A stretch of 64,000 nucleotides of DNA from Planctomycetota bacterium. Lineage in GTDB: Bacteria; Planctomycetota; GCA-002687715. The stretch is from assembly GCA_002683135.1 (NCBI GenBank), contig NYSS01000005.1, positions 166,834 through 230,833 of the forward strand, given 5' to 3'. A program made the position numbers and the translations under genes. Positions 5,412 through 30,324 of the stretch are shown one piece after another. Under the pieces are notes generated by a model. The model searched no databases. It was not told the origin of the DNA and worked only from the letters and a program-made list of their open reading frames with translations. Each line of letters begins with the position of its first letter. Positions within the stretch are counted from its first letter, which is position 1.

Positions 5412-5462
5412 GGCATCCTCCGCGCTTGGGTCCCCAAGCCAGTGATAGCCTAGGTGAAACCC

Positions 5463-5492: not shown

Positions 5493-5506
5493 CAATGACA
5501 GCCGAA

Positions 5507-5526
5507 CCGTGGCCGGTTTGCCACGG
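5507..5526 (-). terminator. Hairpin downstream of the IPT operon
   Basis: CCGTGGC / GCCACGG form a perfect 7-bp stem with a 6-base loop. On the minus strand it lies 69 bases after the stop of the 1225-residue IPT protein and 95 bases before the start of the FG-GAP gene. There is no T-run, so termination is an inference. Confidence 0.4.
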
Positions 5527-5594
5527 CTCCTTACGACAGGATATCCCATTCCCGCCCCCCATTGCGATCCCAGCTCGGGGTTCGGTCGGGGAGG

Positions 5595-9272: not shown

Positions 9273-9283
9273 GTGCTACGCCC

Positions 9284-12571: not shown

Positions 12572-14248
12572 ATGGCGGAACTGCAGGTCCTCAACGGACC
12601 GCTGCAATGGAAGACTTTCAAGATATCCGGCCCGCGGTTTCTCATGGGCCGGCAGGACACCTGCCATCTCGTGCTGAACGACGGGTGGGTCTCCCGTGAG
12701 CACGCGGTGGTCATCGAGGCGTCAGCAGGCGAATACACGGTGCAAGATCTCGGCAGCGAGAACGGGATCTTCGTCAATGGGGCGCGGGTCCAGGACAGCA
12801 AGCTGAAGCACGCGGACATCTTGCGCGTGGGGCGGACGGAGATGCGCCTGTTCAACCCGACCGGCGAGGAGAGCGGCGTTGACCTGGGGGCGTTCACCCG
12901 CCCGTCGGGGGCTGGGCTGCCCGAGCCGTCGGAGGCCGCGAACCTCGACATGACCATTCACGAGCCCGGCGCGCTCAAGGTGGAGCGGCCCGACCTGCGG
13001 GATCGCGTCCGGCGTCTCGAGAAGCTCCTCAACGTGAAAGAGGAGGACAACAGTCGTCTCGCGGCAGAGAACGCGGTCCTCAAGCGCACGCTTGCCCAGG
13101 GCGGGCTGATCGACCCGGCTACAGGTCACGTCGACCTCCGACGGCTGACGACGTCCGCTCCCCGCGAGGCGCTGTCCCGGGACCTCTTGCCCCTGATCGG
13201 GAATCCGGCGTTCAGCGTTACCTGGCCGCTTTGTGACGGAGGCAGCATCGGTCAACTTGCGGCGGGGGACATCGCCCTCGGCGCGCATCGGCTCGGGATC
13301 GTGGGACTCGGGCGCGGGGGCGTTCGTATCGCGGACGCGATGCACGCCCTGGGGTGGCGGCACGTCGCGGCCGTCGCGGCCGACGCCGAGGTGATGGCGA
13401 CGGTGCCATGGGAAACGACGCTCGAGCTGCCAGCGGGCCTCGAGGATGTCGGGGCGGTGGGGGCGCTGGTCGAGGAGCGTCGCCCCGAGATACGCACCCT
13501 GCTGTCGGCCGCCTTGGGCGTGGACCGGACACTCCACCTCATCACGGTCGGGCTTGGAGGCGCCACTGGCATCGGCAGCATCCCGGTTGTTTTGGGGGCG
13601 CTCCAGGCGCTCGATCCAGACACCCCATGCGGCGTCATCCTCTCCGTCCCATCGACCGCGTCTGCGACGGCGGCTCACCGCATGGCGACGATGCGCGATG
13701 GGGTCAAGACGGTGCTGCGGCTGCACGACGCAGGGAAGATTCGCCCGTTCGTGCTGTTTGACGAGTCGCGGCTAGAGCGGATCGTAGGGGAGCAGGCCCG
13801 CTCGGCCCAAAACGCGACGATCGCGGGCCTCATAGACACAGTGGTGCGGTTGCCGGCGCTCCCGTCCATTGGCGGTGACGTCGACTCCGACGCGTTGCGG
13901 ACGTGCCTAGGGACCGAGGGGATGAGCTCATTCGGGCTCGCCGCCGCGAAGGAGACGGACGGAGCCTCAATCGGCGCTGCTTTGCGGCACGCGCTCAGTG
14001 ATGGTTGGCTGTGTTCGCGCGTCGCGCCATCCCGGGGCCGTACGACGGTTGTCCTGGCCATGATCGGTAGCGACGTTCTCGCTGAGGACGCCTCCGTGGC
14101 GAACCGTGTCGGGGCTGCGATCGAGGAGGTCTCGGAGTTGTTGCCGCAGGCGGAGGTCTCGAAAGGAATCTACGAAGATTGTGGGCAAGGAGTGCGCATC
14201 GTGGCCTGGGTCGGGGGGCTTCCTTTCCCGGAGAGTTTGGCGGTCTGA
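12572..14248 (+). CDS. FHA domain fused to an FtsZ/tubulin-like GTPase
   Basis: The 558-residue protein starts at ATG 12572, where the FHA fold begins. Residues about 5-95 are an FHA domain with G26-R27, S41-R-x-H44, N64-G and N69-G, the residues that bind phosphothreonine. Residues about 140-175 form a heptad-like coiled coil. From about 240 the chain follows FtsZ: glycine loop GLGRGGVRIAD (245-255), a tubulin-signature equivalent GGATGIG (329-335, canonical GGGTGTG), then GVILSVPSTASATAAHRM and DGVKTVL, ESRLERI, the long helix with an acidic T7-like loop DVDSD (436-440), and a second FtsZ-like C-terminal domain ending in a VRIVAWVGGLP strand. Family knowledge: GTP-dependent filament proteins. 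The fused phosphopeptide reader and the neighbouring PP2C and kinase suggest phospho-controlled assembly. Whether it hydrolyses GTP or polymerises is unknown. Confidence 0.75.
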   Translation: MAELQVLNGPLQWKTFKISGPRFLMGRQDTCHLVLNDGWVSREHAVVIEASAGEYTVQDLGSENGIFVNGARVQDSKLKHADILRVGRTEMRLFNPTGEESGVDLGAFTRPSGAGLPEPSEAANLDMTIHEPGALKVERPDLRDRVRRLEKLLNVKEEDNSRLAAENAVLKRTLAQGGLIDPATGHVDLRRLTTSAPREALSRDLLPLIGNPAFSVTWPLCDGGSIGQLAAGDIALGAHRLGIVGLGRGGVRIADAMHALGWRHVAAVAADAEVMATVPWETTLELPAGLEDVGAVGALVEERRPEIRTLLSAALGVDRTLHLITVGLGGATGIGSIPVVLGALQALDPDTPCGVILSVPSTASATAAHRMATMRDGVKTVLRLHDAGKIRPFVLFDESRLERIVGEQARSAQNATIAGLIDTVVRLPALPSIGGDVDSDALRTCLGTEGMSSFGLAAAKETDGASIGAALRHALSDGWLCSRVAPSRGRTTVVLAMIGSDVLAEDASVANRVGAAIEEVSELLPQAEVSKGIYEDCGQGVRIVAWVGGLPFPESLAV

Positions 14249-14304: not shown

Positions 14305-15555
14305 ATGGACATCCTGAATCGCGCACGCGGAGCGCTGTTGGGGATGGCAGTGGGTGAAGCTCTCGGGGCTCCGTTGGACGGATTGAGTCCGGAGGAGATC
14401 GAGGAGAAGGTCGGTCGCATAGACGGCTTCCTCGATCCGGCTGATACCCAGCCGGCGTATCGGTCTGGATACTTCACTCACCGGGCGTACGAGGACGAGA
14501 CCCAGGTCGCGTTGGCGACCGCAGAGACCCTGGTCGAGGACGCGGAGCTCCAGGCAGAGGGGCTCAGGTCGCGGCTCGAAGAACTCGGTCGACCCGTCGA
14601 GGGCAACGCGTTCGGTTGCTATCGGCGAGCCCGGCGTAACTTCCGCACCGCGGTCCGGCGCATGCTTGAGGGAGCGCCGTGGCAGGAGTGTGGCGTGAAC
14701 ACCGCCGGCGCCGGAGCGGCCAGTCGAGGTATTCCGATCGGGATCTGGTACCGCGATGAGCGGGATGGACGGCTTCGCGCGAGCGTCGAGGCGACGTTGT
14801 TGACGCATCGTGATCCCCGCGCGTGCGCAGCGACGGTCAGCGTGGCTGAGGCCGTGGCTGTCGCATTGGCTGCTGAGACATCCGACGCCCTACGTCCGGA
14901 GGCTGCCGCGTCCGCCATCGCCGCTTCCTGCCGCGACGCCGAGCGGCTCATGGAAGAGGAATATTCGGAGGTCCTGTATCCGGGATACCAGCCGTACCTG
15001 CATCAGTATTCGGACTCCACTTCGTTGCTGTCAGACCTCGTGCAGCTTGACATCGGGCCCGCGTTCGAGCGCATCGTCAAGCAGGCCTCCGATAAGGGGT
15101 CTCGGCCGATCACGTCTGCGACCCGCGGTTTTTCGCTGACGGCGGTCGTGTCGTCGCTGTATCTGTTCCTCACGGGCCTCGAGTCGTTTGAGGACACCGT
15201 GCTGGACACGATCTGCGAGGGCGGCAGCGCCGATACGCTCGGCTGCCTCGTCGGCGGCCTCTCCGGGGCCCTCCATGGCGTCGATGGAATTCCCGCGGAG
15301 TGGCGCGGGTCGCTCAAGAACAATGAGCATGTCGACGCCTACGGCGCCGCCCTCGTGGGGGGGGGCGACCGAGCGGCGTTGGCGCCGCTAGCTCTCACCG
15401 AGGCGTCGGTGACGCTTCCGGCCCCGCCGGGCCTTCGCAAACGATCGAGGCGGCGCCCAGACCCTCGCCCTTCGGCTCGGGGCCGGGGTGGCGCCGGGCG
15501 CCGCAAGGGAGGTGGTGGGCCTTCTATGGGAGGTGGTCGTGGAGGCGATCGATAG
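14305..15555 (+). CDS. ADP-ribosylglycohydrolase (ARH/DraG-like) family protein
   Basis: The 416-residue protein starts at ATG 14305 behind a GGGAG site. ARH-family marks are RGALLGMAVGEALGAP (residues 8-23), YEDETQVALATAETL (62-76) and GGSADTLGCLVGGLSGALHG (306-325), then IPAEWRG. The family removes ADP-ribose from proteins or nucleic acids using two metal ions held by a Thr-Asp-Asp set and a GGDxDT motif. Here the set reads E63-D64-E65-T66 and the second motif has S308 where an Asp is usual, so metal binding may be weaker or altered. The last 40 residues are Arg/Gly/Pro-rich and look disordered. It lies 56 bases after the FHA-FtsZ-like gene on the same strand, probably co-transcribed. Confidence 0.8.
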   Translation: MDILNRARGALLGMAVGEALGAPLDGLSPEEIEEKVGRIDGFLDPADTQPAYRSGYFTHRAYEDETQVALATAETLVEDAELQAEGLRSRLEELGRPVEGNAFGCYRRARRNFRTAVRRMLEGAPWQECGVNTAGAGAASRGIPIGIWYRDERDGRLRASVEATLLTHRDPRACAATVSVAEAVAVALAAETSDALRPEAAASAIAASCRDAERLMEEEYSEVLYPGYQPYLHQYSDSTSLLSDLVQLDIGPAFERIVKQASDKGSRPITSATRGFSLTAVVSSLYLFLTGLESFEDTVLDTICEGGSADTLGCLVGGLSGALHGVDGIPAEWRGSLKNNEHVDAYGAALVGGGDRAALAPLALTEASVTLPAPPGLRKRSRRRPDPRPSARGRGGAGRRKGGGGPSMGGGRGGDR

Positions 15556-15633: not shown

Positions 15634-16689
15634 GTGAGCAGCAACGCTGTGCCGAGCCCGTCCTGGCGTAAGGACGTTGAAGTGGGAGCCCTCTCCCACG
15701 TGGGGATGGTCCGGTCCGAGAACCAGGACCATTGGGCCTGGTGGGAACCCGAAGACGACGAAGACCTGAAGGGCAAGGGCCGGGTCCTCGTCGTCTGCGA
15801 CGGCATGGGCGGCCACAACGGTGGCATCGTGGCCAGCCGCACGACGGTCGAGGCGATGCTCGAGTCGTTCGACAAGTCGGCGACCTGCAACCTCAAGCGC
15901 CTGCTATCGACAGCGATCGACAGGGGCAACGCCTTGGTTCGGACGAAGGGGCAGGAGGATCCCGCGCTTCGCAACATGGGCACGACTTGCGTCGCCATTG
16001 CTCTGCGCGGTCCCCAGGTCCAGATCGCGAACATTGGCGACAGCCGGGCTTACCGGATCCACGACGGCCAGATCGAGCAGGCGACCCGCGACCACACGTA
16101 TTTGAATGACCTCATCGAGATCGGCCTGCTTACACCAGAGAAAGCCAAGAACCATCCCGAGCGCAACATCATCACCCGTTGCGTCGGCATGGGCGACGTG
16201 GTCCAGGTGGACTTCATCACGCGACCGGCTGAGGCGGGTGACCTGTTCTTGCTTTGCTCTGACGGCTTGTACAACCACGTGGAAGATGACGAGATCTGCG
16301 AGTGCGCCTCCACGTATGCGCCTGAGGAGGCCGCGCAGAAGCTCGTCGACCTCGCAAACAGCCGCGGCGGCGAAGACAACATCACGGTCGGTATCATCCG
16401 AGTGACGGAGACACCGCCGGAGTTCGAAGTGGCCAACAGGGAACACCCTGTCGACGCGGCTGAGGACGAAGGACCCGAGACCCCGACTCCGATCATGACT
16501 ATTGGATCGGACGAGGCGACGCCTTCGATCCCGGCGCCGATTGCTGGAAACCCTGGAAACGACATCACTGCGCTGCAGCAGCAGGTGAGCATCGATCTGC
16601 CCCGGACGGGCATGAAGGGGTGGATGATCCTGCTAGCCGCCGAGCTGATCATCTTGATTATTCTCCAGGCGTTGATTTTGGGGCACTGA
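15634..16689 (+). CDS. PP2C-type Ser/Thr phosphatase with C-terminal membrane anchor
   Basis: The 351-residue protein starts at GTG 15634, five bases after GGAG. PPM/PP2C motifs occur in order: VGMVRSENQD (residues 23-32), VVCDGMGGHNGG (53-64, metal-binding Asp56 and Gly), GTTCVAIAL, IANIGDSRAYRI, ATRDHT, NIITRCVGM, LLCSDGLYNHV and NSRGGEDNITVGII with the last metal Asp. The fold ends near residue 265; a Pro/Glu-rich linker leads to one hydrophobic helix (about 329-350) at the C-terminus, placing the phosphatase domain in the cytoplasm. It ends 11 bases before a kinase-FHA gene, the usual phosphatase-kinase pairing, so it probably reverses that kinase's phosphorylation. Confidence 0.93.
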   Translation: MSSNAVPSPSWRKDVEVGALSHVGMVRSENQDHWAWWEPEDDEDLKGKGRVLVVCDGMGGHNGGIVASRTTVEAMLESFDKSATCNLKRLLSTAIDRGNALVRTKGQEDPALRNMGTTCVAIALRGPQVQIANIGDSRAYRIHDGQIEQATRDHTYLNDLIEIGLLTPEKAKNHPERNIITRCVGMGDVVQVDFITRPAEAGDLFLLCSDGLYNHVEDDEICECASTYAPEEAAQKLVDLANSRGGEDNITVGIIRVTETPPEFEVANREHPVDAAEDEGPETPTPIMTIGSDEATPSIPAPIAGNPGNDITALQQQVSIDLPRTGMKGWMILLAAELIILIILQALILGH

Positions 16690-16700
16690 GTCGACCACCA

Positions 16701-18209
16701 ATGATCGGGACACGCGTCGGAGATTGGCTCATCACGGAGGAACTGGGAGACGGGGGGCACGCCTTCGTCTTCAAGGGAGTGCGTGATGGGGAGGTGGCCG
16801 CGATCAAGATGCTGAAGCCATCGGTCGCGAGCGAGGAGAACCTAGAGAAGCGTTTCAAGATTGAAGTCGAGGCGCTGAAGAGCCTGGACCATCCAGGAAT
16901 CGTCGGGTTCAAGGACTACCTGTGTGTTGGCGGGTATCACTACCTCATCCTGGAGTGCATGGACGCGGGTGCGATTGACCACCTCCTGCGTGTGAACGGT
17001 GCGTTGGAGGCGCGATACGCGCTGCCGATCTTCTACATGATCCTGGATGGGATGAGCTTCGCGCACTCCTTCGGCTACATCCACAGGGACGTCAAGCCGA
17101 ACAACATCCTGCTCAACAAGAGGGGCGAAGCGAAGGTCACCGACTTCGGCATCGCCAAGGTCGTTGGTGGCGAAGACTTGACCAGGCAGGGCTTCGTGCT
17201 GGGGACGACCCTGTACATGGCTCCGGAGTACCTGTCGCAGGGGGTCGTTTCTCCGCAGACGGATATCTATGCGTTGGGGGTCTTGCTGTACGAGATGCTC
17301 ACGAATCGGAAGCCGTTCGAGTTCGAGACCGACGATGAGCTGCCTGTGCAATTTGCGAAACGCGTGTGCACCGGGAATCCGCCACCTCCGAGCGTCTACC
17401 GTCCGATCCCCCCGGCGCTGGAGAAGATCGTCATGAAGGCGATCGCTCGCGATCCGAAGAAGCGGTATCGGCAGGTCGACAAGTTCCAGGCGGACTTGAA
17501 GAAGGCGTTTCCGGAGCTCGTCGAGCGGCCGATCGAGATCCCGGAGGGTCGCCCCAAGACCAGCGCTGTTCAGATCATCGGGGATGTCGCGGCCGGCGCC
17601 GGTCGGTCCCCCGCGGCGGGGTCCAACCCCTGGCTTGCTCTTGGTGCCGCAGGGCTCGCCGCCGCCGTGGTGGGGCTGGTCGCCGCGTTCGTTTTCGGTC
17701 AGGGCGCGGGGATCTCGAGCATCGCTGGGCTGCTGTCCGCCGCCCTCGCCATCGCCTTCACCATCAAGCAGCGGCGCCCGGCGCCGATTTCGAGGACGGA
17801 AGAAGCGACCTTGGACGCGTCAGCCGACGACTCGAGCGACCCCTTGCCGTTTCACGGCGGCGTCGCGCCCCAGGGCGAGGTCGAGGAGACCAACATCTCC
17901 GAGCTCAACGCCTTCCTCGAGGTCACCGAGGGGAAGGCCAAGGGCAAGCGCTATGGCGTTCGCCCCATCTCCCGTATCGGCCGCGATCTTCGCTTCGACA
18001 TCCGTCCACACGATCCCGAGATCTCGCGTCACCACGCGATGATCACCTTCACTGGCACGGGCTTCATCGTGAAGGACACGGGCTCGACGAATGGGACCTT
18101 TGTCAACGAAAACAAGGTGGCGCCTGGCACCGAGGCAGACCTGGAACACGGGAATATCCTCCGAGTGGGTCGCACCTCGATGAGGTTCGAGCACCAGAGG
18201 TCGGGCTAG
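16701..18209 (+). CDS. Hanks-type Ser/Thr kinase with TM segments and C-terminal FHA domain
   Basis: The 502-residue protein starts at ATG 16701, 11 bases after the phosphatase stop. The kinase domain (about 8-275) has the Gly-rich loop ELGDGGHAFVFKG, K36 in VAAIKML, H128-R-D130 with KPNN, D148-F-G and APEYLSQG; all catalytic residues are present. Two hydrophobic helices follow (about 311-335 and 342-359), then an acidic linker and an FHA domain (about 405-495) with IGRD, SRHHAMI and GSTNGTFVN. Both the kinase and the FHA domain should face the cytoplasm if the two helices form a hairpin. FHA domains bind phosphothreonine, so the kinase may recruit its own products. Its stop overlaps that of the convergent gene by four bases. 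Confidence 0.93.
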   Translation: MIGTRVGDWLITEELGDGGHAFVFKGVRDGEVAAIKMLKPSVASEENLEKRFKIEVEALKSLDHPGIVGFKDYLCVGGYHYLILECMDAGAIDHLLRVNGALEARYALPIFYMILDGMSFAHSFGYIHRDVKPNNILLNKRGEAKVTDFGIAKVVGGEDLTRQGFVLGTTLYMAPEYLSQGVVSPQTDIYALGVLLYEMLTNRKPFEFETDDELPVQFAKRVCTGNPPPPSVYRPIPPALEKIVMKAIARDPKKRYRQVDKFQADLKKAFPELVERPIEIPEGRPKTSAVQIIGDVAAGAGRSPAAGSNPWLALGAAGLAAAVVGLVAAFVFGQGAGISSIAGLLSAALAIAFTIKQRRPAPISRTEEATLDASADDSSDPLPFHGGVAPQGEVEETNISELNAFLEVTEGKAKGKRYGVRPISRIGRDLRFDIRPHDPEISRHHAMITFTGTGFIVKDTGSTNGTFVNENKVAPGTEADLEHGNILRVGRTSMRFEHQRSG

Positions 18210-19570
18210 CGATCCGAACGGTTGATGGGTTCGGTGGTCGCGGTCTCGGCGTGACGCAGCAGGCCCTGTATGGCGACCGAGCTGATGGCCCAGCCGGTGA
18301 GGTCCCGCCCCAGGGAGATGCCGATCAACTCATCCCCTGCGAATAGCGGCGTGCCGGCCGCTGGGGGCAGGGGCATGGCGTCGAGGTCGAACGCGAGGAG
18401 GGTGGCCGACTCAGGCTTCACGGCGCCCTTGTCCGCGTTGGTGAGCCGCCGAACCCCAAGGTCCTGAGGGGATTCCCAGGGCGGATAGAAGCGGAGCGTC
18501 CCGGCGCGCGGCGCGGCGGTGAGGGCTCGGGCCAGACGGGCGCTCTGGTCGAGCACGAGAAGGACGAGGTTGCCGTCCTCGCTCTTGCCAGCCGCCGGGT
18601 GAAGGACTCGTGCCTTGACCGGCTTCGCGCTAGCGAGGGAGCCCCCCGGTGCGGCCAGGAGCACCTTGGTGTGGCGTCCGTCAACGGTACCCCGGCGCAG
18701 CCAGGCCTTGAGCCGGAGGTCCACGTCGTAAGTGGTCGCGATGGCTTCGGTGCGGACGACCGCCCCGAAGCCGAGCGTCTCCTGGTCAACGAACCTGCCG
18801 CGATCATCACGGACCACGCCGAGGAGGCGTACGACCGTTCCACGAGGGCCGGCCGGCACGACCCCCGGTGCTCGCTTGGGGGTCGAGGTCTTCGGCCGAC
18901 GGATGGCGCCGGACCCAATGGGCGACATCCCGGCGCCGATGGTGTCACCGGCACTGCCATCCTGCTTGCGGGTCTCAAGGGTCTCGATTCGATCGAGAAA
19001 GTGCCGCACCAGGATGAATCCGCCGATGAGCAACGCGCAGAAGACCATCAACGCGATGGCGACGACGATGCGCCGTCGCACGAGGCGAGGCGGCGCAAGG
19101 GACGCGGGGTCGAGCAGCTGGCGTTCTTCGGCGGTAGCGCCGATGTAGTGGGGCTCACGGTCCGACAAACGCGCGGGTTCTTGCTCTGGAGCCTCTGAGG
19201 TTACGGGGGGAGACGACGCTGATCCGACGGCGAATCGGATACGGGGCCCTTCCCGTCCGAGCCCGAGCTGGTCGCCGTCGGCGAGGGGTGCTCGCCGGAT
19301 GCGGCGGTCGTTCACGTAGGTCCCGTTGAGGCTGCCCACGTCATAGATAATGGGGATGCCGTCTTCGACTCGAATTTCGCAGTGCCGGTGGGAGACGGAG
19401 CGCTCTCTCTCGGCGTCGAAGGAGCAATGGTTGTTCTTGCCGCGCCCGATCGAAATGCGGGTTCCCGTGAACCGCTCCTCCGTCCCCTTTCGGTGACCGG
19501 TGAGGTGGCGCAGCGCGATGTGAAGCGCCTTCTCTCCCGGCTTCTTTACTTCGGAATCGGAGATCGTCAC
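18206..19570 (-). CDS. FHA domain-TM protein with trypsin-like C-terminal domain
   Basis: The 454-residue protein is placed at GTG 19570 because its GTGA overlaps the stop of the upstream gene, a coupled start; an earlier GTG at 19651 would add 27 unsupported residues. An N-terminal FHA domain contains SIGRGKNNHC, SVSHRHCEI and GSLNGTYVNDR. A Glu/Pro-rich linker leads to one membrane helix (RRRIVVAIALMVFCALLIGGFILV), a Thr/Pro-rich stretch, and an exported C-terminal domain ending GTPLFAGDELIGISLG-like, the shape of the last strands of trypsin-like serine proteases. The usual GDSG is not seen, so activity is doubtful. It is the third gene of the dual-kinase operon and probably links phosphorylation inside to a domain outside. 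Confidence 0.75.
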   Translation of the reverse strand: MTISDSEVKKPGEKALHIALRHLTGHRKGTEERFTGTRISIGRGKNNHCSFDAERERSVSHRHCEIRVEDGIPIIYDVGSLNGTYVNDRRIRRAPLADGDQLGLGREGPRIRFAVGSASSPPVTSEAPEQEPARLSDREPHYIGATAEERQLLDPASLAPPRLVRRRIVVAIALMVFCALLIGGFILVRHFLDRIETLETRKQDGSAGDTIGAGMSPIGSGAIRRPKTSTPKRAPGVVPAGPRGTVVRLLGVVRDDRGRFVDQETLGFGAVVRTEAIATTYDVDLRLKAWLRRGTVDGRHTKVLLAAPGGSLASAKPVKARVLHPAAGKSEDGNLVLLVLDQSARLARALTAAPRAGTLRFYPPWESPQDLGVRRLTNADKGAVKPESATLLAFDLDAMPLPPAAGTPLFAGDELIGISLGRDLTGWAISSVAIQGLLRHAETATTEPINRSDR

Positions 19571-22497
19571 CGCTGCTTTATCCGAATGGGGTGCACCCTC
19601 GTCAGCCCCCAGCCCGTCCCACGAGCGAAAAGGGGCGCGACCAAGTGGCACCCGTCTTTGCTGGGACTGCTCTCGCCTCGAACGCCGAAGGGCTCGCTGC
19701 GGACCAGTTTCCAGGCGTTTCCGGTCGTGCCCGAGGATCCCGAGTCCCCGCGAGAACGAACACTCGATGACCTCGGACCGTCCAGCCCACCGTAACCGAA
19801 TCTGGGCAGGTGGCCTGATCCTATCGCTCTGCAGCAGTTGAGGTTCGAGCAGTTCTTGCCGTTCCCCTGGCCGGGTTGACCCAGGCCGATCGTATGGGAT
19901 GCCGCGACGGGAGGGTTTTCCTCTCGACCCTCCGGCGGCGCCTGTCGCACGGTGGGGCCGCGTGGATGGTCGAGCCGTTCTTCGCCCCCCTCTTCTCTCA
20001 CCCTGCGGATTTCGTTCAGAAAGGCGGACCGTTCTCCTTCGAGGAGGTGCTTTGCGGATGCTTTCCGCACGGCGCTCTCGATCGCGGCGAGCTCCTTGCG
20101 GGCGGCCTCGCCCCCGCGACCTGCGACGCTCTCGCGCACCTTCTGCAGCCGGTCCTTCAGCACCTGAGGGATTGAGTAGGGCGTCAGCTCGGCGAGGAAT
20201 CGAATCGCTCGCTCCTTCCCCGCGACGTCCCGTACGACGAGGACCAGCGGCCCTTTTCCTGGCGGCGTCGCCGGATCACCCAGGGCTCCTCCTTCACCGA
20301 GGGGGAGGTCGCCGTCGCCCAGCGTCGCCCGGACGACCATGCCGTTGGTCACCTTTACGACGAGCTCGGACGGCCGTTTGAGCTGGATCGGTCCGTCGTG
20401 TCCGACCACCTCGCCGTTGTGAAGCAGGTCGATCACCACCGCGGGGACCACCGCAGGGGTGACCACTTTGAACGCGAGCCCGGTCACGTTTCCCGCGGCG
20501 TCGCGCGCGCGGATCATCATCGCGGCGGGGAGGACCTCGGGAACGCCTACCACGAGCGTGACGACGTCGCCGTTCTTCTTGCGCGCGAGGACGACAGTTC
20601 CCGTGACCGTGATGTCGGCATCGCCTCCTGCTTCCTCGACCGTGATCTCAAGGCGCGTTCCCGGGCTGGCCTCGAAGGTGTCGCGTGGCCCGTCCTCTGC
20701 CGGGTCCCAGGCGCCGATCCGGATTGTTGGAGGGACGTGATCGACCCGAAGCCTCGCCGTGGCGAGATGGCGGCTGTCGCGACTATCAGTGAATCGGATT
20801 TCGCGGTCCGCCATGGCCTGATCCGCGACATCGAGGACGACGCTCAGCGCCGAGCTTCCGCTGTCGCCGAGCTCATGGGTCCCGTGCTTGAAGACGGTTC
20901 CACCACGCGGTTCCAGCAGTGTCCACAGGATCGCCCCTTCGCCGTCGTGGGTCAGGGCGAACGCGACCTTTCCGTGGGTGACGGCGATGGCATCCAACCC
21001 GACGTCCACGCCATTCACCTTGATGGTACGGAGACGAATCGGCTGGCGCGCTCGGATTGGAAACGACCGCTCAGGGGTCGCGTTTCCGAGGGCATCCTCC
21101 GCCTGCACGACGACGCCTCCTTTGGCGTTCTCGGGGACGCGCAGGCGACGGGACTCTGACCTGGGGCCCTTCTGTGCACCTGCGGGGGAGAGCCCGGTCG
21201 GGATGATGCGTACCGGGCCGAGGCCGTTCTCGTCTTCGAGGACGACCTCGATCACGCTGCCCTGCTCTAGCACGGTCACGGTGTCTTCGAGCAGCGGTTT
21301 GCCAGCGCAGCTGACGGTGATGGAAGGTGCGGCGGTGTCGGCGTGGACGACCCACGTCCTCAGGACGGCGGAGCCGCGCAGCAGGCTGATGCCGGTCTTG
21401 CCCGAATGCTTGAGCTTCACGGACGCGACGAGGTGCCGCCCCTCGACGCGCAAGGGGACGGCTGCAGCCCCATCCGTGCGTACGCCCATGCCGACCACGT
21501 GGGCGGGGATGCCGGGGTGCAGGGCGACGCGTAGCTCGTGCTCGAGTCCAGCGACCGCCACTCCGTGGGTCGCGAGGACCGTGTCCGAGAGCAGCACTTC
21601 AGAGACGGGAAACCAGCGCTCGTCTTTCACGTCGAGGGTGAAGGACGTCGTCGTCGTCGTGTCGAGCTGGTTCCTCGCCGTGACTTCGATCTGGAGCGGC
21701 CCCTCGGATCCGATCAGGTTGGCGGGGAGAGCCACGCGGACGCTGGATTTTTCGAGCCCGGAGACGGCGTCCTCATCGTCGCCTGCGACCCACGAAACGC
21801 GAGACAGGCCTCGCTCGTCCGTGACCTCGATCGTCACTGGCGCTCCCGGGGGGACCAGGATGCGGGTCGAACCGTCGGCGGAGGGACTCACGGGTTCGTT
21901 CTCGCCGACGGTCACGTTGATCACGGGGCAGCCTCGATCGAGCCGCAACCGCATGGTGCCGTCGAGCACGTGGTCGACGGTCGTCCCGTCGGGCAGCTCG
22001 ATGACGGCCGTGATCGGCAGCGTCATCGCCTCTCCCGACTCGGGGAGGCTGATAAGCGTGGAGACGGTGTCGTTCTCAAGCCGGACTTCTTCGTCGCCGA
22101 AGGTCAGCGCGCGGAGGGGCCCCACGAGGTCGGCTGGCCGGATCCGTGCGCTCACCCGTATGGGGCTTACGCCGAAGAGAAGTTCTCCTTCGGCGCTGGG
22201 GTCGAACGAACGCTTGCCCACCCTCTGGATCGGGTGATGCCTTTGGAGGGCCAGGGAGACCACATGTATCGTCAGTTTTTTGCAGCGTTCCGCTTGGTTC
22301 TTCGTCAGCGTGTCTCGTTTCTCGAGCTCGCGAAGGGCTGTCAGGGCACGTCCGATGGACCCGTCCGTGAGGCGCTGCTCCGCCCGTTCGAGGAGCGCGT
22401 CGTCTTGCATCAAGGAGGACAACCGGCGGGCGCTGAGAAGGATGGGAATCAGGAGCAGGATGGCAACGATCATGCAGAGGAGCGCGCGGCGATCCAT
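19567..22497 (-). CDS. Membrane-anchored protein with repeated Ig-like exported domains
   Basis: The 976-residue protein starts at ATG 22497, two bases after the stop of the dual-kinase gene and downstream of a GGAGGGGG run. A single N-terminal helix (ALLCMIVAILLLIPILL) is followed by a helical pair-like stretch (ERAEQRLTDGSIGRALTALRELEKR) and then many beta-sandwich-like segments (for example GAPVTIEVTDERGLSRVSWV, PSITVSCAGKPLLEDTVTV, PPTIRIGAWDPAEDGP), so most of it is outside the cytoplasm. The last 130 residues are rich in Gly, Ser, Arg and Cys with relaxed codon use and do not look like the rest; a frameshift near residue 855 is possible. It resembles the external region of the upstream kinase receptor and may act with it. 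Confidence 0.7.
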   Translation of the reverse strand: MDRRALLCMIVAILLLIPILLSARRLSSLMQDDALLERAEQRLTDGSIGRALTALRELEKRDTLTKNQAERCKKLTIHVVSLALQRHHPIQRVGKRSFDPSAEGELLFGVSPIRVSARIRPADLVGPLRALTFGDEEVRLENDTVSTLISLPESGEAMTLPITAVIELPDGTTVDHVLDGTMRLRLDRGCPVINVTVGENEPVSPSADGSTRILVPPGAPVTIEVTDERGLSRVSWVAGDDEDAVSGLEKSSVRVALPANLIGSEGPLQIEVTARNQLDTTTTTSFTLDVKDERWFPVSEVLLSDTVLATHGVAVAGLEHELRVALHPGIPAHVVGMGVRTDGAAAVPLRVEGRHLVASVKLKHSGKTGISLLRGSAVLRTWVVHADTAAPSITVSCAGKPLLEDTVTVLEQGSVIEVVLEDENGLGPVRIIPTGLSPAGAQKGPRSESRRLRVPENAKGGVVVQAEDALGNATPERSFPIRARQPIRLRTIKVNGVDVGLDAIAVTHGKVAFALTHDGEGAILWTLLEPRGGTVFKHGTHELGDSGSSALSVVLDVADQAMADREIRFTDSRDSRHLATARLRVDHVPPTIRIGAWDPAEDGPRDTFEASPGTRLEITVEEAGGDADITVTGTVVLARKKNGDVVTLVVGVPEVLPAAMMIRARDAAGNVTGLAFKVVTPAVVPAVVIDLLHNGEVVGHDGPIQLKRPSELVVKVTNGMVVRATLGDGDLPLGEGGALGDPATPPGKGPLVLVVRDVAGKERAIRFLAELTPYSIPQVLKDRLQKVRESVAGRGGEAARKELAAIESAVRKASAKHLLEGERSAFLNEIRRVREEGGEERLDHPRGPTVRQAPPEGREENPPVAASHTIGLGQPGQGNGKNCSNLNCCRAIGSGHLPRFGYGGLDGPRSSSVRSRGDSGSSGTTGNAWKLVRSEPFGVRGESSPSKDGCHLVAPLFARGTGWGLTRVHPIRIKQR

Positions 22498-22499
22498 GA

Positions 22500-25400
22500 T
22501 CAACGTCCCCCCTCCGGCTCCGGCCACAGGATCCGGACACCGATGTCCCGCAGGCTCTCCAGGTCACGACCTTCCGCGTGGGGTTTGCGCCCGATTAGCC
22601 CGCCGCCTGTTGTCGAGTTGTTGCCCTGGTGTTGATAGCTGCCACCCATGGTGGCGTTCTCGGCGATCCACTCCGCGACGTTCCCGGCCAATCCGCGCAG
22701 CCCGAACGGGCTCTGAGGACTCATCGCACCCGCGGCCCGCGGCCCGCCCGACGGGTCGGCGAAGTTGCACCACTCCCGGCTACTTGGGTGCCGGAAGTAC
22801 CGGGTGGCGGACTTCGGGCCGGAGCTGGCCACGAAGACGAGCCACTTGGCGTCGGGCTTGGTGAACAACCCCGCCGCGTTCTTCCACTCGTCAGCCGTCG
22901 GGAGTCGCCCGCCGCCGCATTCGAACGCGAAGAACGCCGCGACGTCGTAGTAGACATATCGCAGGGGCATGTCGTCCTCGGCCTGCTGGTTGCGCTTCCA
23001 GACCGCATCAATCCGCGCGCGGTCGATCCGGGTCGCGGCTGCCGCGCTCACTCCGTCTATCTCGGAGAGCTGGCTTTTGAAGGCCTGGATGCGCGCCGCG
23101 AGGTCCGCGCTCACCCGGCCTCTGAATGCTCGGAAATGCCCGACCGTCGCTTCGGTCTCGGCCATATAGAAGCGCGTCTTACCCTCGTGGACGACGGGGA
23201 CCGCGCGCATGCCGGCCAAGGCCTGGATCTGTGCCACAGAGAGCACCGTCGTCGGAGGCACGACGGGGCGCTTCGGCTTCATCGTGACGTCGACCTGGTG
23301 GGTCGTTTCGTGGCCGGCGATATCACGGGCTATGACGCTCAGCCGATAGGTGCCGGGCCCGCGTTCCTGGTTAGGGATGCCGTAGACGTTCTGGCCAGAG
23401 GAGGAGAGCGGAGTGAAAGATGGCGCGCCGCCGGAGAGCTTGAACGCGACACGTTCGATCCCGTAGGCGTCGTTGACGTGGGCGCTGAATCCATCGAATC
23501 GTTCGACCTCCATGGCGTCTTCGGTGACGACTCGGTCTTCGTGCCTGATCGCGATTGCGGGAGGCACCGTATCGATCCGAACGCGTGTCTCCGCGAATGG
23601 TGTGTCCGCCATCCCGGTGTCGTCTCGTTCGGCCGTCAATTTGACGACATACTCGCCGTCCTTCGGGAGCTTGAGTTCGACCTTGAAGCTCTTGGAGATG
23701 TCCTTGACGGGGATCGTCTCCGAGTAGCCGTCGGCCGTGACGCCTACCTTGATTCCCACGACTCGCGGAGCGCGGTTTGATAGGTCGAGGGTCACGACCC
23801 GTGAGCGCGCGACCCAGGTGTCGTTCCGTTCTGTGCATCCGTCTTCAGCGGTCACGCGGTTCAACTGAGGGGCGTTCGCTTCTCGGATCAGCAATAGCTC
23901 GATCGGGGTTGTCCGTCCGGATAGGTCTTTGACGTCGAACTTGATCACGCGACTGGTCCAGTTCGGGACGTCGCGGAACGCCCACGTGACGTGCTTGCCG
24001 CGTGGCGAGAAGTCGGCGACCAGGGGGTCGCCGCCAATGTTGGAGATGACGGCCGCCTCGTCGCTGGAGAAGCCACAATCGTCCTCGACGCGCAGCTTGA
24101 TGTTGCTGAGTCGCGACACCTGGAGGCCGTTGATAGCGAGCAAGGAGGGGTTATCCGTGACCTGCAGGCCGTTGCGAATGACGTGCCAGGTGGGCCGCTC
24201 TGCGTCCCGCTTCCATCGCAAGGTGTCGAACCAGATGGGCGGCGCAACCGTGCTGTCGTCGCCGACCACCTGGTACCAATGGAGGTCGACCGATCCAGAC
24301 TGGCCTTCCAGCCCGGGTATGCGAACGCTGGTCGGGTTCGCTTCAGCGACCGCGATGTCCGTCGTCTGGATCTCCGCCGTGCCCTCGGTCTTGAAGCCGA
24401 GGAGAAAATGCCCAAGCCCGGCACGATTCTCGACCACGAGATCGATGCTGTTGCCCTTGATGGGGACGACGCGTGTGTCGAACTGGCGCGGGATTTCCAG
24501 GGGGGCCACGAGTTCCCCGGCCTTCTTCACGTAGAGGGACGGGGGCTGTACGTGGACGAGGACGGAGAGGGCGCTCGACTTGCTGCCGGCGAAGTCTTGG
24601 GTTTGGTAGCGGATGCGCCACTTCCCAGGAACCATCTCCTTGCCTTGCGGCGCGGCGACCTTCAGCTCGATTCCGCCCTCCACCGCCGCGCTCGAAGCGC
24701 GCAACTCCAGATCTCCTTCGAGTGTTTCGATGGAGATGTCCGTGTCCTGCTCATCGATGCGCCCCGCGTCCTGCACGCGAATTACGATCGGAGGGAAGCG
24801 CCCCACTGTCAGGGTCCCGTCGATGGCGCTGGGTTGTTCGTACAGGGTGGTGGTCAGTCTTGGTTTTATCCGGTCGACGAAGACCCCATAGCGCGTGATC
24901 ACGCGGTTGTCTTCGGTCTTGATGACCAGGTTTCCGCTGCGCGCTTCCGGCGATGGAAAGGCGAGCGTGGCGTTGAACTCGCCGTCGCTGGCTTGCTGGA
25001 GCGCCTCTCGGCCGACCTCTTCGCCGGCCGCATCCTCCAGCACGGCGATCAGGCGGTCGTTCGCCGTTACGCCTGTCGCGGAGAGCCGCACGGCGAGGCC
25101 GCGCTCTTCGGGGACGAAGAACGCCCCTTCGGCGCGTTGCCGGCCGGCCACCGTGATGTGGTTGACCGAGGCGCCGATGACGTCGACTCTCCAGGAGAGG
25201 AGACTCTCGTTGCCGGCGAGGTCGGAGACCTTGACCGCCACGTCGAATGCCTTCTGTTCCGGGATATCCTCGGGCAGGCGAATCGCTCCTCCACCCCCGA
25301 TACGCACTTGGCGAGTCTGCCCGGCGTAGGAGACGGTGGCGTTCTGTTGCAGTCCGTCCGCGTCCATCGCCGCGATCTGGAACAAGCTCGCCATGGACTC

Positions 25401-28343
25401 GCTGGATCTCTTGCGTAACGGCTCGCTGGGTGGCTCGTCGATCTTGAACGGCTGCGTTTCTTCGCCGACGGGGCTGTATGTGAGCCGCATTGTCGGAGCG
25501 ACCGGGTCATGGACGACCTTGACCGAGTCGGCCATGGGCTGACCCCTGAAGGTGAAGGCCACGGAGTGGGTTTGGGTGGCCGCATCGCCGATGTCCGGCA
25601 ACTTCAGTGCGACTACGTAGCGCGAGCCATCGCGCTTGACGGGCGTCGCTGTCCCGCCGATTGATGCCTCGACGTCTCCGTCGGACAGGGGTGTCGCGGC
25701 GAGATCGAAGGGGGGGCACTCGAGGTCGAGGGGCAAGAGCAAATCAGCCCGGTTGGTGCGGATCAGTCCGAGGGGAGTGCGTAGACGCGGCGCTACGCGG
25801 ATAATCGTGACCTCGCTGTTGAATTGTCGCCCGGTGAGGTCGGTGACCTCGAGGGTTCTGCTGTCGGGATCGCCCGGGTCTTGCGTGACCCGGACGCTCT
25901 CGAGGCGGTCGCCCTCGTCGCTTCGCCACCGCATGATGCGGCCACCTTCACCGTCGCTGAATCCGCTCTCTTCGTCGACGACCTCGAACACGATCGGGCT
26001 TCCGTGCATCGCGCGGATGGTTTGACCGAGCGGCTCCGTGTGGCCGCCGTGGGTGATGACGGTGCGTCGCGGCGGCGTAGGGTCGTGGACGACGGTGAAG
26101 GACAATGGCTCCGCGGCTTCTTCCCGAACCAGGAGCGTCACCGCGTAAGTTGTGGCCGCGTCGGTCTTATTGGAGCCGAGCGCGATCTCGTGGATGAGGG
26201 GCTCGGAACCCATGGTGGCTTCGGGGCCCGGGACTTCGAGCTCGCCCTCGACCCGCACCTCCGTGTCGAAGACAGCCCCCTCCTGTCCGACGACCGTGAT
26301 GCCCACGGCGTTTTCTCGGACGTAGTAGGTGGATCCCGGCTCGAAGTTGTCCGCTCTGACAAACCGGATGCCGAACGGAATCCTGGCGATGGTGGGCGGT
26401 TCGGGGGTGAGGATTTGGATGACCGCGATCGTTGCGACCACGAGCGCCACCGCCGCGACCAGGGCTATGGGGGATCGATACCAGGGGCGCGCCGGAATTT
26501 CGTCGGGCGCGAAGACGACGCGCAGGTCGTCAAGAACCTCGGCGGCGCTCTGGTATCGGTCATCCGGCTCCTTCGCCAGCAGCTTCAAGATGATGCGGTC
26601 GAGGTCAGGCGAGGCTTCGGTCGCGATCTTCGACGGCGGGGTCGGCTCCGCGTTGCAGTGCTGGTAGACGATGGCGATCTGGTTGCCCTGGAACGGCCCT
26701 CGGCCCGTCGCCATCATGTAGAGGACACAGCCGAGGCTGTAGAGGTCAGAGCGGTTATCTACGGACTGATCGTTGATCTGCTCGGGGCTCATGGTGGCGG
26801 CGGTGCCGCCGCCGACGTCGTGGGCACCCGTATCCGGTCCCTGACTACCCTTCGAGCGCTTGGTCACCTTTGCGATGCCGAAGTCCGTGATCTTGGCGAC
26901 GTGGCGGTGAACGAGGACGTTCGCCGGCTTCAGGTCTCGATGAATGACCGGCTCGTCACGGTCGTGGGCTAACGAGAGGCCGTCGCACAGTCCTCTCGCA
27001 ATCTCCCAGAACCGTTGCCCCGAGAGCGCGCCCTCCTCTTCGATGACTTGGGCGAGGGTGCTGCCCTCCACGAACTCCATCGAGATGAACGGGGTCCCTC
27101 CGTCGGTGCCGACGTCATAGATGGTGACAATGTTCTCGCAGCGCAATGCGGCTGACGCCCGCGCTTCGTTGAGCACGCGCCTCTTCGCCTTCTCCTCCTC
27201 GATCTGGGTCGCCACTTTCAGCGCGACCTTCCGGCGAAGATCGGGGTCCCAGGCCTCGTACACGGAGCCCATGCCACCTCGCCCGACGAGCCGCTTGATG
27301 ACGTACCGGTTGATTGTGTCGCCCTCGGCCAACTCGGCGCCAGGCGTGTCCTTGGGGAAGAAGAAATAGCCGTCGGCGAGCCCTGTTTCGCTCTCTGTCC
27401 GTAGGGGCACGGGCGTGGTGTAGTCGGAGTCGGGCGTCGCCGAGGCGTCGTGAAACACCTCGCCCGCGTTGGCGCGTTCACGTACGGCGTTCAACACCTC
27501 GAGGACCTCGTCGAGGAGCGGGCGGTCCTCGGGTGTCTTCGCGAGGCATCGCATGATGACGGCCTGCAACTCCGGTGGAATCCGCATCCCCTCGCGGAAG
27601 CTCCCGATCGGGCTCGGCGGCTCCTTCTGGATCTTCTTGAAGTCCGGGATGCCACGAATCTCCAATGGGACATGCCCGGTGACCATCTGGTAGAGCACGA
27701 CGCCGAGGGAATACACGTCACTCGCGGGAGTCAGGTCGAAGCCGCGGGCCTGCTCCGGGGAGAAGTACTGGGGCTTCCCCATGATGGTGAGCATCTCGGT
27801 CACCTGGTCGAGCTCACCCCCGATCGATTTCCCGATGCCGAAGTCGAGGAACTTCGGCACCCGAATGCCGTCCGCGTCCTTCACGAGCACGATGTTGTCG
27901 GGGGCGAGATCGCGATGCAGGATCTGCTTCTCGTGGATGCTCTTCAGTCCTTCGACGAGGTGAACGCCGTAGTGGAGCAGCGTGTGGACGGGCAGTACGT
28001 CCTCGCCCCGTCGAATGAAGTAGCTGAGTTGCTCGCCCTCGAGCAACTCCATGGCGATGAACCAGTCGCCGTTCTCGGAGCACGCGTGCTGGACGAAGTC
28101 CACGACGCGGGGATTGCCGGCCAGGATCTGGAGTATTTCAGCTTCGCGCTTGAAGCGCCGGAGATTGCGCTCCGCTTCCTTGGGGTTCCGGTCGAGGAAT
28201 TCGCGCGAGAGGATCTTGATTGCGACGAAGCTCGAGGTCTCCTCGTCGCGTGCGCGGTAGACGGTGGCCATGCCACCTGCGCCTACGCGCTCCAGGATGG
28301 TGTACCGGCCGTTGAATACCGTTCCCTTGAGATCGTCACTCAT
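22500..28343 (-). CDS. Tandem-kinase receptor with Ig-like repeats and FGE-sulfatase-like C-terminus
   Basis: The 1947-residue protein starts at ATG 28343, just before the first kinase fold; an earlier in-frame extension encodes a 12-bp repeat and is unsupported. Kinase 1 (about 14-285) has GAGGMATVY, K43, H143-R-D145-LAPDN, DFGIGKS and SPEQARG. Kinase 2 (about 335-600) has GRGGMGSVYEAW, VALKV, H468-R-D470-LKPAN, DFGIAKV and SPEQIND. In both, catalytic residues are intact; kinase 1 has Ala for the usual Lys after HRDL. A TM helix (about 624-646) is followed by about 1000 residues of Ig-like beta domains and a C-terminal FGE/SUMF-like domain (MAETEATVGHFRAF, GRLPTADEWKNAAG, GLRGLAGNVAEWIAENATMGG, DIGVRI). 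In many such proteins that domain is non-catalytic. It leads a coupled three-gene operon. Confidence 0.9.
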   Translation of the reverse strand: MSDDLKGTVFNGRYTILERVGAGGMATVYRARDEETSSFVAIKILSREFLDRNPKEAERNLRRFKREAEILQILAGNPRVVDFVQHACSENGDWFIAMELLEGEQLSYFIRRGEDVLPVHTLLHYGVHLVEGLKSIHEKQILHRDLAPDNIVLVKDADGIRVPKFLDFGIGKSIGGELDQVTEMLTIMGKPQYFSPEQARGFDLTPASDVYSLGVVLYQMVTGHVPLEIRGIPDFKKIQKEPPSPIGSFREGMRIPPELQAVIMRCLAKTPEDRPLLDEVLEVLNAVRERANAGEVFHDASATPDSDYTTPVPLRTESETGLADGYFFFPKDTPGAELAEGDTINRYVIKRLVGRGGMGSVYEAWDPDLRRKVALKVATQIEEEKAKRRVLNEARASAALRCENIVTIYDVGTDGGTPFISMEFVEGSTLAQVIEEEGALSGQRFWEIARGLCDGLSLAHDRDEPVIHRDLKPANVLVHRHVAKITDFGIAKVTKRSKGSQGPDTGAHDVGGGTAATMSPEQINDQSVDNRSDLYSLGCVLYMMATGRGPFQGNQIAIVYQHCNAEPTPPSKIATEASPDLDRIILKLLAKEPDDRYQSAAEVLDDLRVVFAPDEIPARPWYRSPIALVAAVALVVATIAVIQILTPEPPTIARIPFGIRFVRADNFEPGSTYYVRENAVGITVVGQEGAVFDTEVRVEGELEVPGPEATMGSEPLIHEIALGSNKTDAATTYAVTLLVREEAAEPLSFTVVHDPTPPRRTVITHGGHTEPLGQTIRAMHGSPIVFEVVDEESGFSDGEGGRIMRWRSDEGDRLESVRVTQDPGDPDSRTLEVTDLTGRQFNSEVTIIRVAPRLRTPLGLIRTNRADLLLPLDLECPPFDLAATPLSDGDVEASIGGTATPVKRDGSRYVVALKLPDIGDAATQTHSVAFTFRGQPMADSVKVVHDPVAPTMRLTYSPVGEETQPFKIDEPPSEPLRKRSSESMASLFQIAAMDADGLQQNATVSYAGQTRQVRIGGGGAIRLPEDIPEQKAFDVAVKVSDLAGNESLLSWRVDVIGASVNHITVAGRQRAEGAFFVPEERGLAVRLSATGVTANDRLIAVLEDAAGEEVGREALQQASDGEFNATLAFPSPEARSGNLVIKTEDNRVITRYGVFVDRIKPRLTTTLYEQPSAIDGTLTVGRFPPIVIRVQDAGRIDEQDTDISIETLEGDLELRASSAAVEGGIELKVAAPQGKEMVPGKWRIRYQTQDFAGSKSSALSVLVHVQPPSLYVKKAGELVAPLEIPRQFDTRVVPIKGNSIDLVVENRAGLGHFLLGFKTEGTAEIQTTDIAVAEANPTSVRIPGLEGQSGSVDLHWYQVVGDDSTVAPPIWFDTLRWKRDAERPTWHVIRNGLQVTDNPSLLAINGLQVSRLSNIKLRVEDDCGFSSDEAAVISNIGGDPLVADFSPRGKHVTWAFRDVPNWTSRVIKFDVKDLSGRTTPIELLLIREANAPQLNRVTAEDGCTERNDTWVARSRVVTLDLSNRAPRVVGIKVGVTADGYSETIPVKDISKSFKVELKLPKDGEYVVKLTAERDDTGMADTPFAETRVRIDTVPPAIAIRHEDRVVTEDAMEVERFDGFSAHVNDAYGIERVAFKLSGGAPSFTPLSSSGQNVYGIPNQERGPGTYRLSVIARDIAGHETTHQVDVTMKPKRPVVPPTTVLSVAQIQALAGMRAVPVVHEGKTRFYMAETEATVGHFRAFRGRVSADLAARIQAFKSQLSEIDGVSAAAATRIDRARIDAVWKRNQQAEDDMPLRYVYYDVAAFFAFECGGGRLPTADEWKNAAGLFTKPDAKWLVFVASSGPKSATRYFRHPSSREWCNFADPSGGPRAAGAMSPQSPFGLRGLAGNVAEWIAENATMGGSYQHQGNNSTTGGGLIGRKPHAEGRDLESLRDIGVRILWPEPEGGR

Positions 28344-28542: not shown

Positions 28543-30324
28543 ATGAGAAGCTGGATCGCCTTGCCGGTTGTTGCGCTTGCGTTCGCTATCTGTGCGCCGG
28601 ACGCTTACGCGCAACCCGCCGTCGAACGGCTGAAGTCCGAGGTGGCCGAGCTCAAGGGGCTGCTTGCCAAGCAGCGAGCCGACTTTGAGAGGGCGATCGG
28701 CGACCTCAAGGAGCGGCTCGACAGGGAGCTCGCGGACGAGGTCAAGAAGAAGCTCGAGACCTATGTCGACGACATCGTCGCTCGCAAGAGCAAGTTCTAT
28801 CGTCGTCCTCCCGCGGGCAGCAAGGACTCGAGCATTAACTACTCAGTCTTCGACGCCCTGGAGGGCGGGCTGATCTTCTCCGGCCTCTTCCGGACCCGGT
28901 TCGAGCATCGAGGCCAAAACGTCGATTTCAACAGCGGCGACAGCGGCCTCGACGATGAAGGGCCGAGGTTCAATGGCCGCTTCAGGCTCGGATTTGGGGC
29001 CGTCATTGTCCGTGGATTGAACGAGGACCGCACGAAGGTCACGGCGCTGACCGAGTTTCAGGCTGTCGGCACGTTCGCAAACAACACGTATTTCTCATTC
29101 AGCGGTCCCAGCGGGGTCCCCGTCGCGACGGAGTTCACGATCTTCAAGGAGCCGTTCGAGCAGGTCGGGCTCTACCAGGGCTTCATGTCGTTCGACCATG
29201 TCCTCGGTGACGACATCTTCCTGAGGCTCGGGCGGCAGGAGGTGATCCTGCCCGAAGACGACAGCAACGAGTTCATCTTCGGTAACAACAGTTTCTATGA
29301 CGGGACCGTTCACGACGGGTTGCTGCTGACCTGGGCCCCGTCCAGGTTCAGCCTCTCCGGCTTTTACTTCAAGGAAGCGCAATCCGACACCGAGCTAGCC
29401 GTGACGTTGCCGGCCGACGACTTCGACGAGGATTGGTTGGCGGGCTTCTACGCTAGCTGGAAGCCGGGGGAGGCGACGAAGACGACCGTCGATTTTTACG
29501 CCCTGTACTTTGATGCGCGGTCCAACTTTACCGACGCGTTCGTCACCCGCACGACGGCGTTGGCCTTCGACGGCGCGCTCACGCCGCCGATCCTGGGCCA
29601 CTTCTGGACGCTCGGCGGCCGACTACTGTGGAGTGAGATCGACCTGTTCGGTGGCCTGCTCCAGGTCAACGCGGAGGCCGCGTTCCAGACGGGAAACAAC
29701 GGCGTTGAGGATGCGGTGTCGGGGGGGCTGGACGAGCAGTCGATTCACGGGTGGTCGACGGAGGTCCTCTTGAACTATTGGGTCCAATCCGAGGATCTTC
29801 AGCCGATCGTGTCGCTGTCGTACTACTACGCCGGCGGTGGCAGCGAGAACCCGGGCACCGCCACCGGTTTTCCGCCGACGCACATCGGGTTTCAGCCGCT
29901 GTTCATCAACCGCCACTTCGACCGCCCTGTCTCTGCCAGGGAGCGATACGACAAGCCGTACCACTCGGGTGGCGGTCGCTACGGGAACATGGACCTCATT
30001 CCGCTCACCAACATGCACATCGTCAAGGCGGCGGTGTCGATTTCTCCTGCGGACAAGTTCGAGATCGGCCTCGCCGGTGTCATGGCGATTACCGCCGACA
30101 ACGAAGGGTGGGGTACGGGGGTCTTCGGATACGAGGTCGACCTGTTCGGCTCCTACGATTACAAAGACTACATTCGCTTCTCCGCCAACCTGTCCGTGTT
30201 CTTTCCCGAGAGCACGGCGACAGACATGTCGGAGTACTACTTCTTCAGCGGCACTGGCCTCGACGGCGAGCCCGACAATGACATCGCCTTCGCGTTCTAC
30301 ATCCAGGCCTTGATCGCGTTCTGA
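28543..30324 (+). CDS. Outer-membrane beta-barrel protein with N-terminal coiled coil (AlgE-like)
   Basis: The 593-residue protein has a signal peptide (to about AYA-Q24), then a coiled coil (residues about 25-75: VERLKSEVAELKGLLAKQ and DLKERLDRELADEVKKKL). The remainder alternates aromatic strands typical of large barrels: GLIFSGLFRTRFEHRG, LGRQEVILPEDD, FSLSGFYFKEAQ, TTVDFYALYFDARS, GGRLLWSEIDLFGG, and a terminal YIQALIAF with a final Phe as in barrel proteins. The pattern is nearest to the alginate-export/AlgE-type porins. The coiled coil could span to the cell wall or form trimers. The ATG is preceded by a GGGAG-like site. It is a single gene; the substrate is unknown. Confidence 0.75.
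   Translation: MRSWIALPVVALAFAICAPDAYAQPAVERLKSEVAELKGLLAKQRADFERAIGDLKERLDRELADEVKKKLETYVDDIVARKSKFYRRPPAGSKDSSINYSVFDALEGGLIFSGLFRTRFEHRGQNVDFNSGDSGLDDEGPRFNGRFRLGFGAVIVRGLNEDRTKVTALTEFQAVGTFANNTYFSFSGPSGVPVATEFTIFKEPFEQVGLYQGFMSFDHVLGDDIFLRLGRQEVILPEDDSNEFIFGNNSFYDGTVHDGLLLTWAPSRFSLSGFYFKEAQSDTELAVTLPADDFDEDWLAGFYASWKPGEATKTTVDFYALYFDARSNFTDAFVTRTTALAFDGALTPPILGHFWTLGGRLLWSEIDLFGGLLQVNAEAAFQTGNNGVEDAVSGGLDEQSIHGWSTEVLLNYWVQSEDLQPIVSLSYYYAGGGSENPGTATGFPPTHIGFQPLFINRHFDRPVSARERYDKPYHSGGGRYGNMDLIPLTNMHIVKAAVSISPADKFEIGLAGVMAITADNEGWGTGVFGYEVDLFGSYDYKDYIRFSANLSVFFPESTATDMSEYYFFSGTGLDGEPDNDIAFAFYIQALIAF

Follow-up and report, generated by a model that had tools for sequence, protein, structure and literature searches.

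In mycobacteria, the kinase PknB phosphorylates the kinase-like domain of MviN, which is then bound by FhaA (PMC3601408). The PpkA-PppA-Fha1 switch of type VI secretion consists of a kinase, a PP2C phosphatase and an FHA protein that are encoded together (PMC6213207), and plant tandem kinase-pseudokinases carry two kinase domains in one chain (PMC6170490). About 80% of the Planctomycetota kinases are membrane proteins, and their exported parts are very varied (PMC11032199). Here we describe a conserved, order-specific signalling neighbourhood, the general kind of which is known and the tandem-kinase history of which is unusual, in a 64,000-nucleotide stretch of a Planctomycetota draft genome (5.07 Mb, 91% complete), referred to as the window. 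Its genes, lettered A to H, lie at 12.5 to 30.3 kb, and no tRNA and no Rfam match was found within the window. Comparisons were made with an order sample of 12 genomes, comprising families f1 (window genome and G001-G005), f2 (G006, G008 and G010) and f3 (G007, G009 and G011), and searches for F and A were extended to a wider phylum sample of 392 genomes. All genomes compared are drafts, that of G003 being 76% complete, so some gene absences may be assembly gaps. The topology of G, F, E, C and D was derived from hydropathy only, and structure models were built from three-sequence alignments. The features of the locus are as follows:

12572..14248, plus strand: gene A, FHA domain, coiled coil and FtsZ/tubulin-superfamily domain, in a run with B, C and D
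14305..15555, plus strand: gene B, ADP-ribosylglycohydrolase family protein, in the run with C and D
15634..16689, plus strand: gene C, PP2C phosphatase with a C-terminal membrane anchor
16701..18209, plus strand: gene D, Ser/Thr kinase, TM hairpin and FHA domain
18206..19570, minus strand: gene E, cytoplasmic FHA domain, TM helix and putative exported HtrA/DegS-like domain without catalytic Ser
18236..18892, minus strand: exported part of E, trypsin/HtrA-like fold suggested, nucleophile Ser absent
19226..19468, minus strand: FHA domain of E, phosphothreonine-site residues R43, S60, H63 and N82 intact
19567..22497, minus strand: gene F, N-terminal TM anchor, Ig-like exported region and degenerate C-terminal FGE-sulfatase remnant
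19642..19908, minus strand: FGE-sulfatase remnant of F, matching the C-terminal third of the ortholog's domain
22500..28343, minus strand: gene G, tandem-kinase receptor of 1947 aa
22650..23177, minus strand: FGE-sulfatase-like domain of G (Pfam, E 9.6e-13)
26412..26468, minus strand: single TM helix of G, aa 626-644, by hydropathy
26508..27305, minus strand: kinase 2 of G, VALK, HRDLKPAN and DFG all present in the window
27474..28304, minus strand: kinase 1 of G, HRDLAPDN with Ala at the position of the catalytic-loop Lys; Lys43, HRD Asp, Asn and DFG present
28543..30324, plus strand: gene H, Alginate_exp-family outer-membrane porin, divergent from G

A preliminary description of this DNA had recognized a minus-strand operon of three genes, encoding a receptor with two kinases, an Ig-like membrane protein and an FHA-TM-protease-like protein. 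Open reading frames, Pfam and hydropathy agree on the operon and, largely, on its domain make-up: the genes follow in the order G, F, E and converge on the plus-strand genes C and D. The junctions are also as described, with 2 nt between the G stop and the F start, an overlap of the F stop and E start as GTGA, and D and E stops that overlap at cTAG. The start codons at 28343 (G, MSDDLKG...) and 16701 (D, MIGT.VG...) are conserved in the orthologs. The single phosphatase of the set is C, a PP2C (Pfam, E 1.6e-15) with one predicted C-terminal TM helix, and FHA domains were indeed found on three proteins, A, D and E (Pfam), each of them carrying the GR, SxxH and NG motifs of the phosphopeptide site. 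The kinase and FHA domains of D are both predicted to be cytoplasmic and joined by a TM hairpin; searches with this kinase match uncultured Planctomycetota MAGs.

A close likeness is to the mycobacterial PknB-PstP-FhaA-MviN (CwlM) system, which combines a membrane Ser/Thr kinase that has an exported sensor, a PP2C phosphatase and an FHA adaptor. Unlike in the PknB system, two kinases are predicted in the receptor, the FHA adaptor is membrane-anchored and Ig/FGE sequence replaces PASTA. A Pfam scan of G and D gave no PASTA match, and neither rodA, pbpA nor mviN, that is, no gene for RodA, a PBP or the MviN flippase, is among the annotated neighbours. The module was therefore rejected as a PknB-PstP-FhaA system proper, as it has neither a PASTA ectodomain nor rodA/pbpA/mviN linkage. 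With the type VI PpkA-PppA-Fha1 switch, it shares kinase, PP2C and FHA genes side by side, but it has additional exported receptor parts, and no type VI secretion genes were found among the annotated neighbours. G resembles other Planctomycetota membrane Ser/Thr kinases in its large exported region. It differs from them in keeping F, E, C and D as fixed neighbours at the order level and in a clade-specific loss of the kinase 1 catalytic-loop Lys.

G consists of kinase 1, kinase 2, one TM helix, about 1000 aa of Ig-like sequence and a C-terminal FGE-sulfatase-like domain, and has orthologs at L036 11086-16884 (44% identity) and L038 4260-10166 (38%). The only Cys residues of the FGE domain are 1809 and 1859, with none in the last 88 residues. 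We therefore rejected the domain as a true formylglycine-generating enzyme, given that such enzymes have a C-terminal pair of catalytic Cys residues, which is lacking here. Across orthologs, identity is 60-77% in the kinases and 24-34% in the exported parts. Exported parts that diverge much faster than cytoplasmic ones are as expected of sensors, and this contrast in rates fits cytoplasmic machinery that is conserved while its contacts outside change. The interval between G and H was too divergent in a three-way alignment to reveal any conserved operator.

The preliminary count of three kinase domains holds at the motif level, with two reservations, namely that kinase 1 of G is without the catalytic-loop Lys and that kinase 2 is a pseudokinase in f2. 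Kinase 2 of G and the kinase of D have the beta-3 Lys, the HRD Asp with loop Lys and Asn, and the DFG Asp. Judged by its sequence, kinase 1, which is 31% identical to kinase 2, departs from the Hanks-type pattern at the catalytic-loop Lys, which normally lies two positions past the HRD Asp, and keeps the other catalytic residues. The position is occupied by Ala in the window, G003, G002 and G006 and by Cys in G010. The Lys is present in 126 of the 133 kinase domains whose HxD loop could be read in the fetched loci, and the five Ala or Cys cases are exactly kinase 1 of this clade. In f1, both kinases of G otherwise carry the usual motifs. The f2 counterpart G', in turn, has retained kinase 1, whereas the beta-3 Lys, HRD and DFG are all gone from its kinase 2; the chain stops shortly after this domain, has no TM, Ig or FGE part and is soluble. 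Only the dead kinase 2 end is visible in G008, because the contig begins inside this domain. A kinase tree unites the f1 and f2 kinase 1 domains (98/92 support) and, more weakly, the kinase 2 domains (88/89), the pseudokinase branches being long and their placement less sure; this grouping makes G and G' orthologous tandem kinases. Other tandem kinases of the phylum, considered as members of the same family, were rejected since the tree puts them in separate groups. Outside the clade, only one of the tandem kinases inspected has an FHA gene directly beside it, that of G047. There, in a distant family, an FHA protein, a tandem kinase and a single kinase form an apparent operon (L143 3462-10450), an independent parallel.

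JAK kinases also have two kinase domains in one chain. The likeness to JAK and plant tandem kinases extends to the degeneration of one domain in f2; unlike them, the proteins described here are bacterial, and f2 keeps the N-terminal kinase while the C-terminal one degenerates. We assume an independent origin. Little work has been done on tandem kinases and pseudokinases of bacteria, and a literature search on the former returned nothing directly on point. In this order, orthologous tandem kinases occur as a two-kinase receptor and as a soluble kinase-pseudokinase, two states that share their neighbourhood as well as their FHA, phosphatase and kinase partners. This natural comparison allows a test of the purpose of the second kinase domain and of pseudokinase origin outside eukaryotes.

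F, described earlier as an Ig-like membrane protein, does have a TM anchor and Ig-like sequence, but its C-terminal end is a broken FGE-sulfatase domain. A complete domain of this type ends the F ortholog of G003 (L036 7775-11089; E 4.5e-15), and window F matches its C-terminal third weakly (28/94 identities, E 1e-5). As the last ~130 codons (~400 nt) also lose coding base bias and only the C-terminal third is matched, we regard this end as degenerate. Tight coupling to E was consequently rejected as proof of an intact F, although G003, which has 4-nt start-stop overlaps at both G/F and F/E, couples the two genes as well. F and its f2 counterpart F' are homologous (hhalign probability 98.5, E 2.6e-15, 441 columns), and no F was found elsewhere in the phylum at E 1e-6 among 392 genomes.

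Among solved structures, GarA and FhaA (TB39.8), which are known to partner PknB, come closest to the FHA domain of E. Identity between E orthologs is 64-70% over residues 1-100 and 19-52% in blocks past residue 200. The protease-like label given to this protein stands in part: FHA domain and TM helix are present and an HtrA-like fold is suggested, but the nucleophile Ser is replaced by Ala or Pro in three orthologs, where PAAGTPL, PPAGMPI and ALPGTPL take the place of the GNSGGPL region (alignment read by eye). E was therefore rejected as an active protease, and from its sequence the exported part is probably not one. The model of this part, weak at a pLDDT of 48.6, aligned best with DegS and HtrA1 among re-aligned chains (VIA-align), with Z up to 7.1, below the tool's safe level of 8; the exported part may thus be HtrA-like in fold. 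These best matches, together with an outer-membrane porin, H, as divergent neighbour, would suit a DegS/RseP-type arrangement in which E rather than G is the sensor, its HtrA-like domain detecting misfolded envelope proteins and its FHA domain relaying to the kinases. Given the poor model and its low Z, the catalytic Ser missing from three orthologs, and an E' that is FHA plus TM only, without any exported domain, in f2 as well as G007 and G011, we consider such a role for E improbable. On the genomic side of E, a PMT_2-type membrane protein converges on it with overlapping ends in G001 (L044 3599-6126), and the f2 operon continues after E' with X, a multi-TM protein that has a PMT_2 match in G006 only. 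A PMT_2-type protein is a possible recurrent partner of E.

Across the order, G and F are both present in 6 of the 12 genomes and both absent from the other 6, F being found only where G occurs. G, F and E are contiguous in five of six G-bearing genomes (window, G003, G006, G008 and G010). When the five-protein set was sought in relatives, C, D, E, F and G were found together in the same convergent layout in 4/12 genomes, namely the window, G006, G008 and G010, with D of G006 split over two contigs; in f2, D with C converges on X-E'-F'-G'. Elsewhere the parts separate. G003 keeps the E-F-G-H order of the window, with A and B at the end of another contig, and D was not found in its 76%-complete draft. 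G002 distributes the genes over three contigs as G-H, F-E and A-B-C-D. G007 and G011 have C, D and E' but neither F nor G, and G001 and G005 have E beside H without D, F or G, such that D and E are spread wider than F and G. The gene set is conserved but not indivisible. Occurrence of the genes apart in relatives without co-variation, named beforehand as the outcome that would speak against a joint system, was observed in part: the pieces are scattered in G002, and D and E are also found where G and F are absent, yet F still tracks G.

This distribution bears on whether the neighbourhood is inherited gene order only, that is, unrelated membrane kinases and FHA proteins passed on as a block with no joint function. 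Kinase and FHA matches are numerous in every relative, the parts are separated in G002, and the overlapping convergent stops, tried as a conserved feature, were rejected because gene X lies between D and E in f2 and D is not beside E in G003 or G002. Against mere inheritance, F and G are together in six of six genomes and absent together from six, the block persists between families with exported parts that have diverged almost beyond recognition, and G003 keeps its 4-nt start-stop overlaps. Weighing these points, we hold inherited order to be unlikely, if still a serious contender.

We favour, with modest confidence, a membrane Ser/Thr phospho-signalling module composed of the G receptor with F, the adaptor E, the phosphatase C and the kinase D. 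The earlier suggestion of a signalling system, one that may sense the envelope, is supported in part by a conserved membrane set of kinase, phosphatase and FHA proteins, and weakened by parts that are separable in some relatives. G would be a bitopic receptor, the exported Ig-like and FGE-like part of which responds to an extracytoplasmic cue, probably joined by the kinase-less F, and this response would change the state of the two cytoplasmic kinase domains. E would act as a membrane-tethered adaptor with an FHA domain that binds phosphothreonine made by G or D, and the tail-anchored PP2C C would remove phosphates and reset partner binding by E. In the window family, kinase 1 may be regulatory or slow and kinase 2 the main catalyst. 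In f2, kinase 2 is a pseudokinase and the protein is soluble; for this reason the tandem kinase, once phosphorylated, may chiefly be a platform on which the FHA domain of E docks, and D the principal kinase. The tandem kinase would then be like MviN, whose kinase-like domain can be a phosphorylated, FHA-docking pseudokinase (PMC3601408). Gene order, domains, topology, co-occurrence and the gain or loss of motifs are read directly from sequence; we infer the envelope origin of the cue from topology, and who phosphorylates and binds whom by analogy. Since kinases and FHA proteins are very numerous in planctomycetes, partners may also lie elsewhere in the genome.

The run that contains C and D in the window and in G002 also includes A, which raises the question of whether the module mainly controls this FHA-FtsZ/tubulin-like protein, and hence division or the cytoskeleton, rather than envelope homeostasis. 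A has an FtsZ/TubZ/CetZ-like domain (Foldseek E 1.9e-9; domain pLDDT 70-90) and an intact FHA site, and its full-length form was found, among 392 phylum genomes, only in three f1 genomes, all with receptor-type G. The same count also speaks against such control, as A is carried by three genomes only; moreover, A is missing from f2 although G, F, E, C and D are present there, and the GTPase signature GGxTGxG, near-intact as GGATGIGS in the window, is lost in both orthologs. Control of A as the main task accordingly has, in our judgement, little probability. A literature search found no published FHA-FtsZ fusion. At L194 and L195, in two genomes of another family (f75), A is represented by its tubulin-like part only, the FHA domain being absent.

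G006 encodes a second tandem kinase (L048 6891-11555) with a degenerate kinase 1, an intact kinase 2 and an FGE domain, divergent from an H-like porin, while the soluble tandem kinase adjoining F'-E' in the same genome shows the opposite losses, in that its kinase 1 is retained and its kinase 2 is dead. No full-length counterpart of the second protein was found in G008 or G010, so the idea of reciprocal loss draws on one genome, and the complementary degeneration is suggestive only. The membrane kinase, in which kinase 2 survives and kinase 1 is dead, carries the Ig and FGE parts. While the window family has both kinases in a single receptor, the work of a tandem kinase whose one domain controls the other might have been divided here in the course of evolution, which, with E and D, would amount to a JAK-like, FHA-coupled bacterial receptor system; we regard this as rather doubtful.

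Some further neighbours recur. H adjoins G in three genomes and E in two others. At the place that D and C occupy in the window, G003 encodes an ECF sigma factor together with two further single kinases (L036 515-5514). Finally, three large FG-GAP or TIG proteins are encoded on the minus strand of the window at 3399-12277, and their order is kept in G003 (L189) beside A and B.
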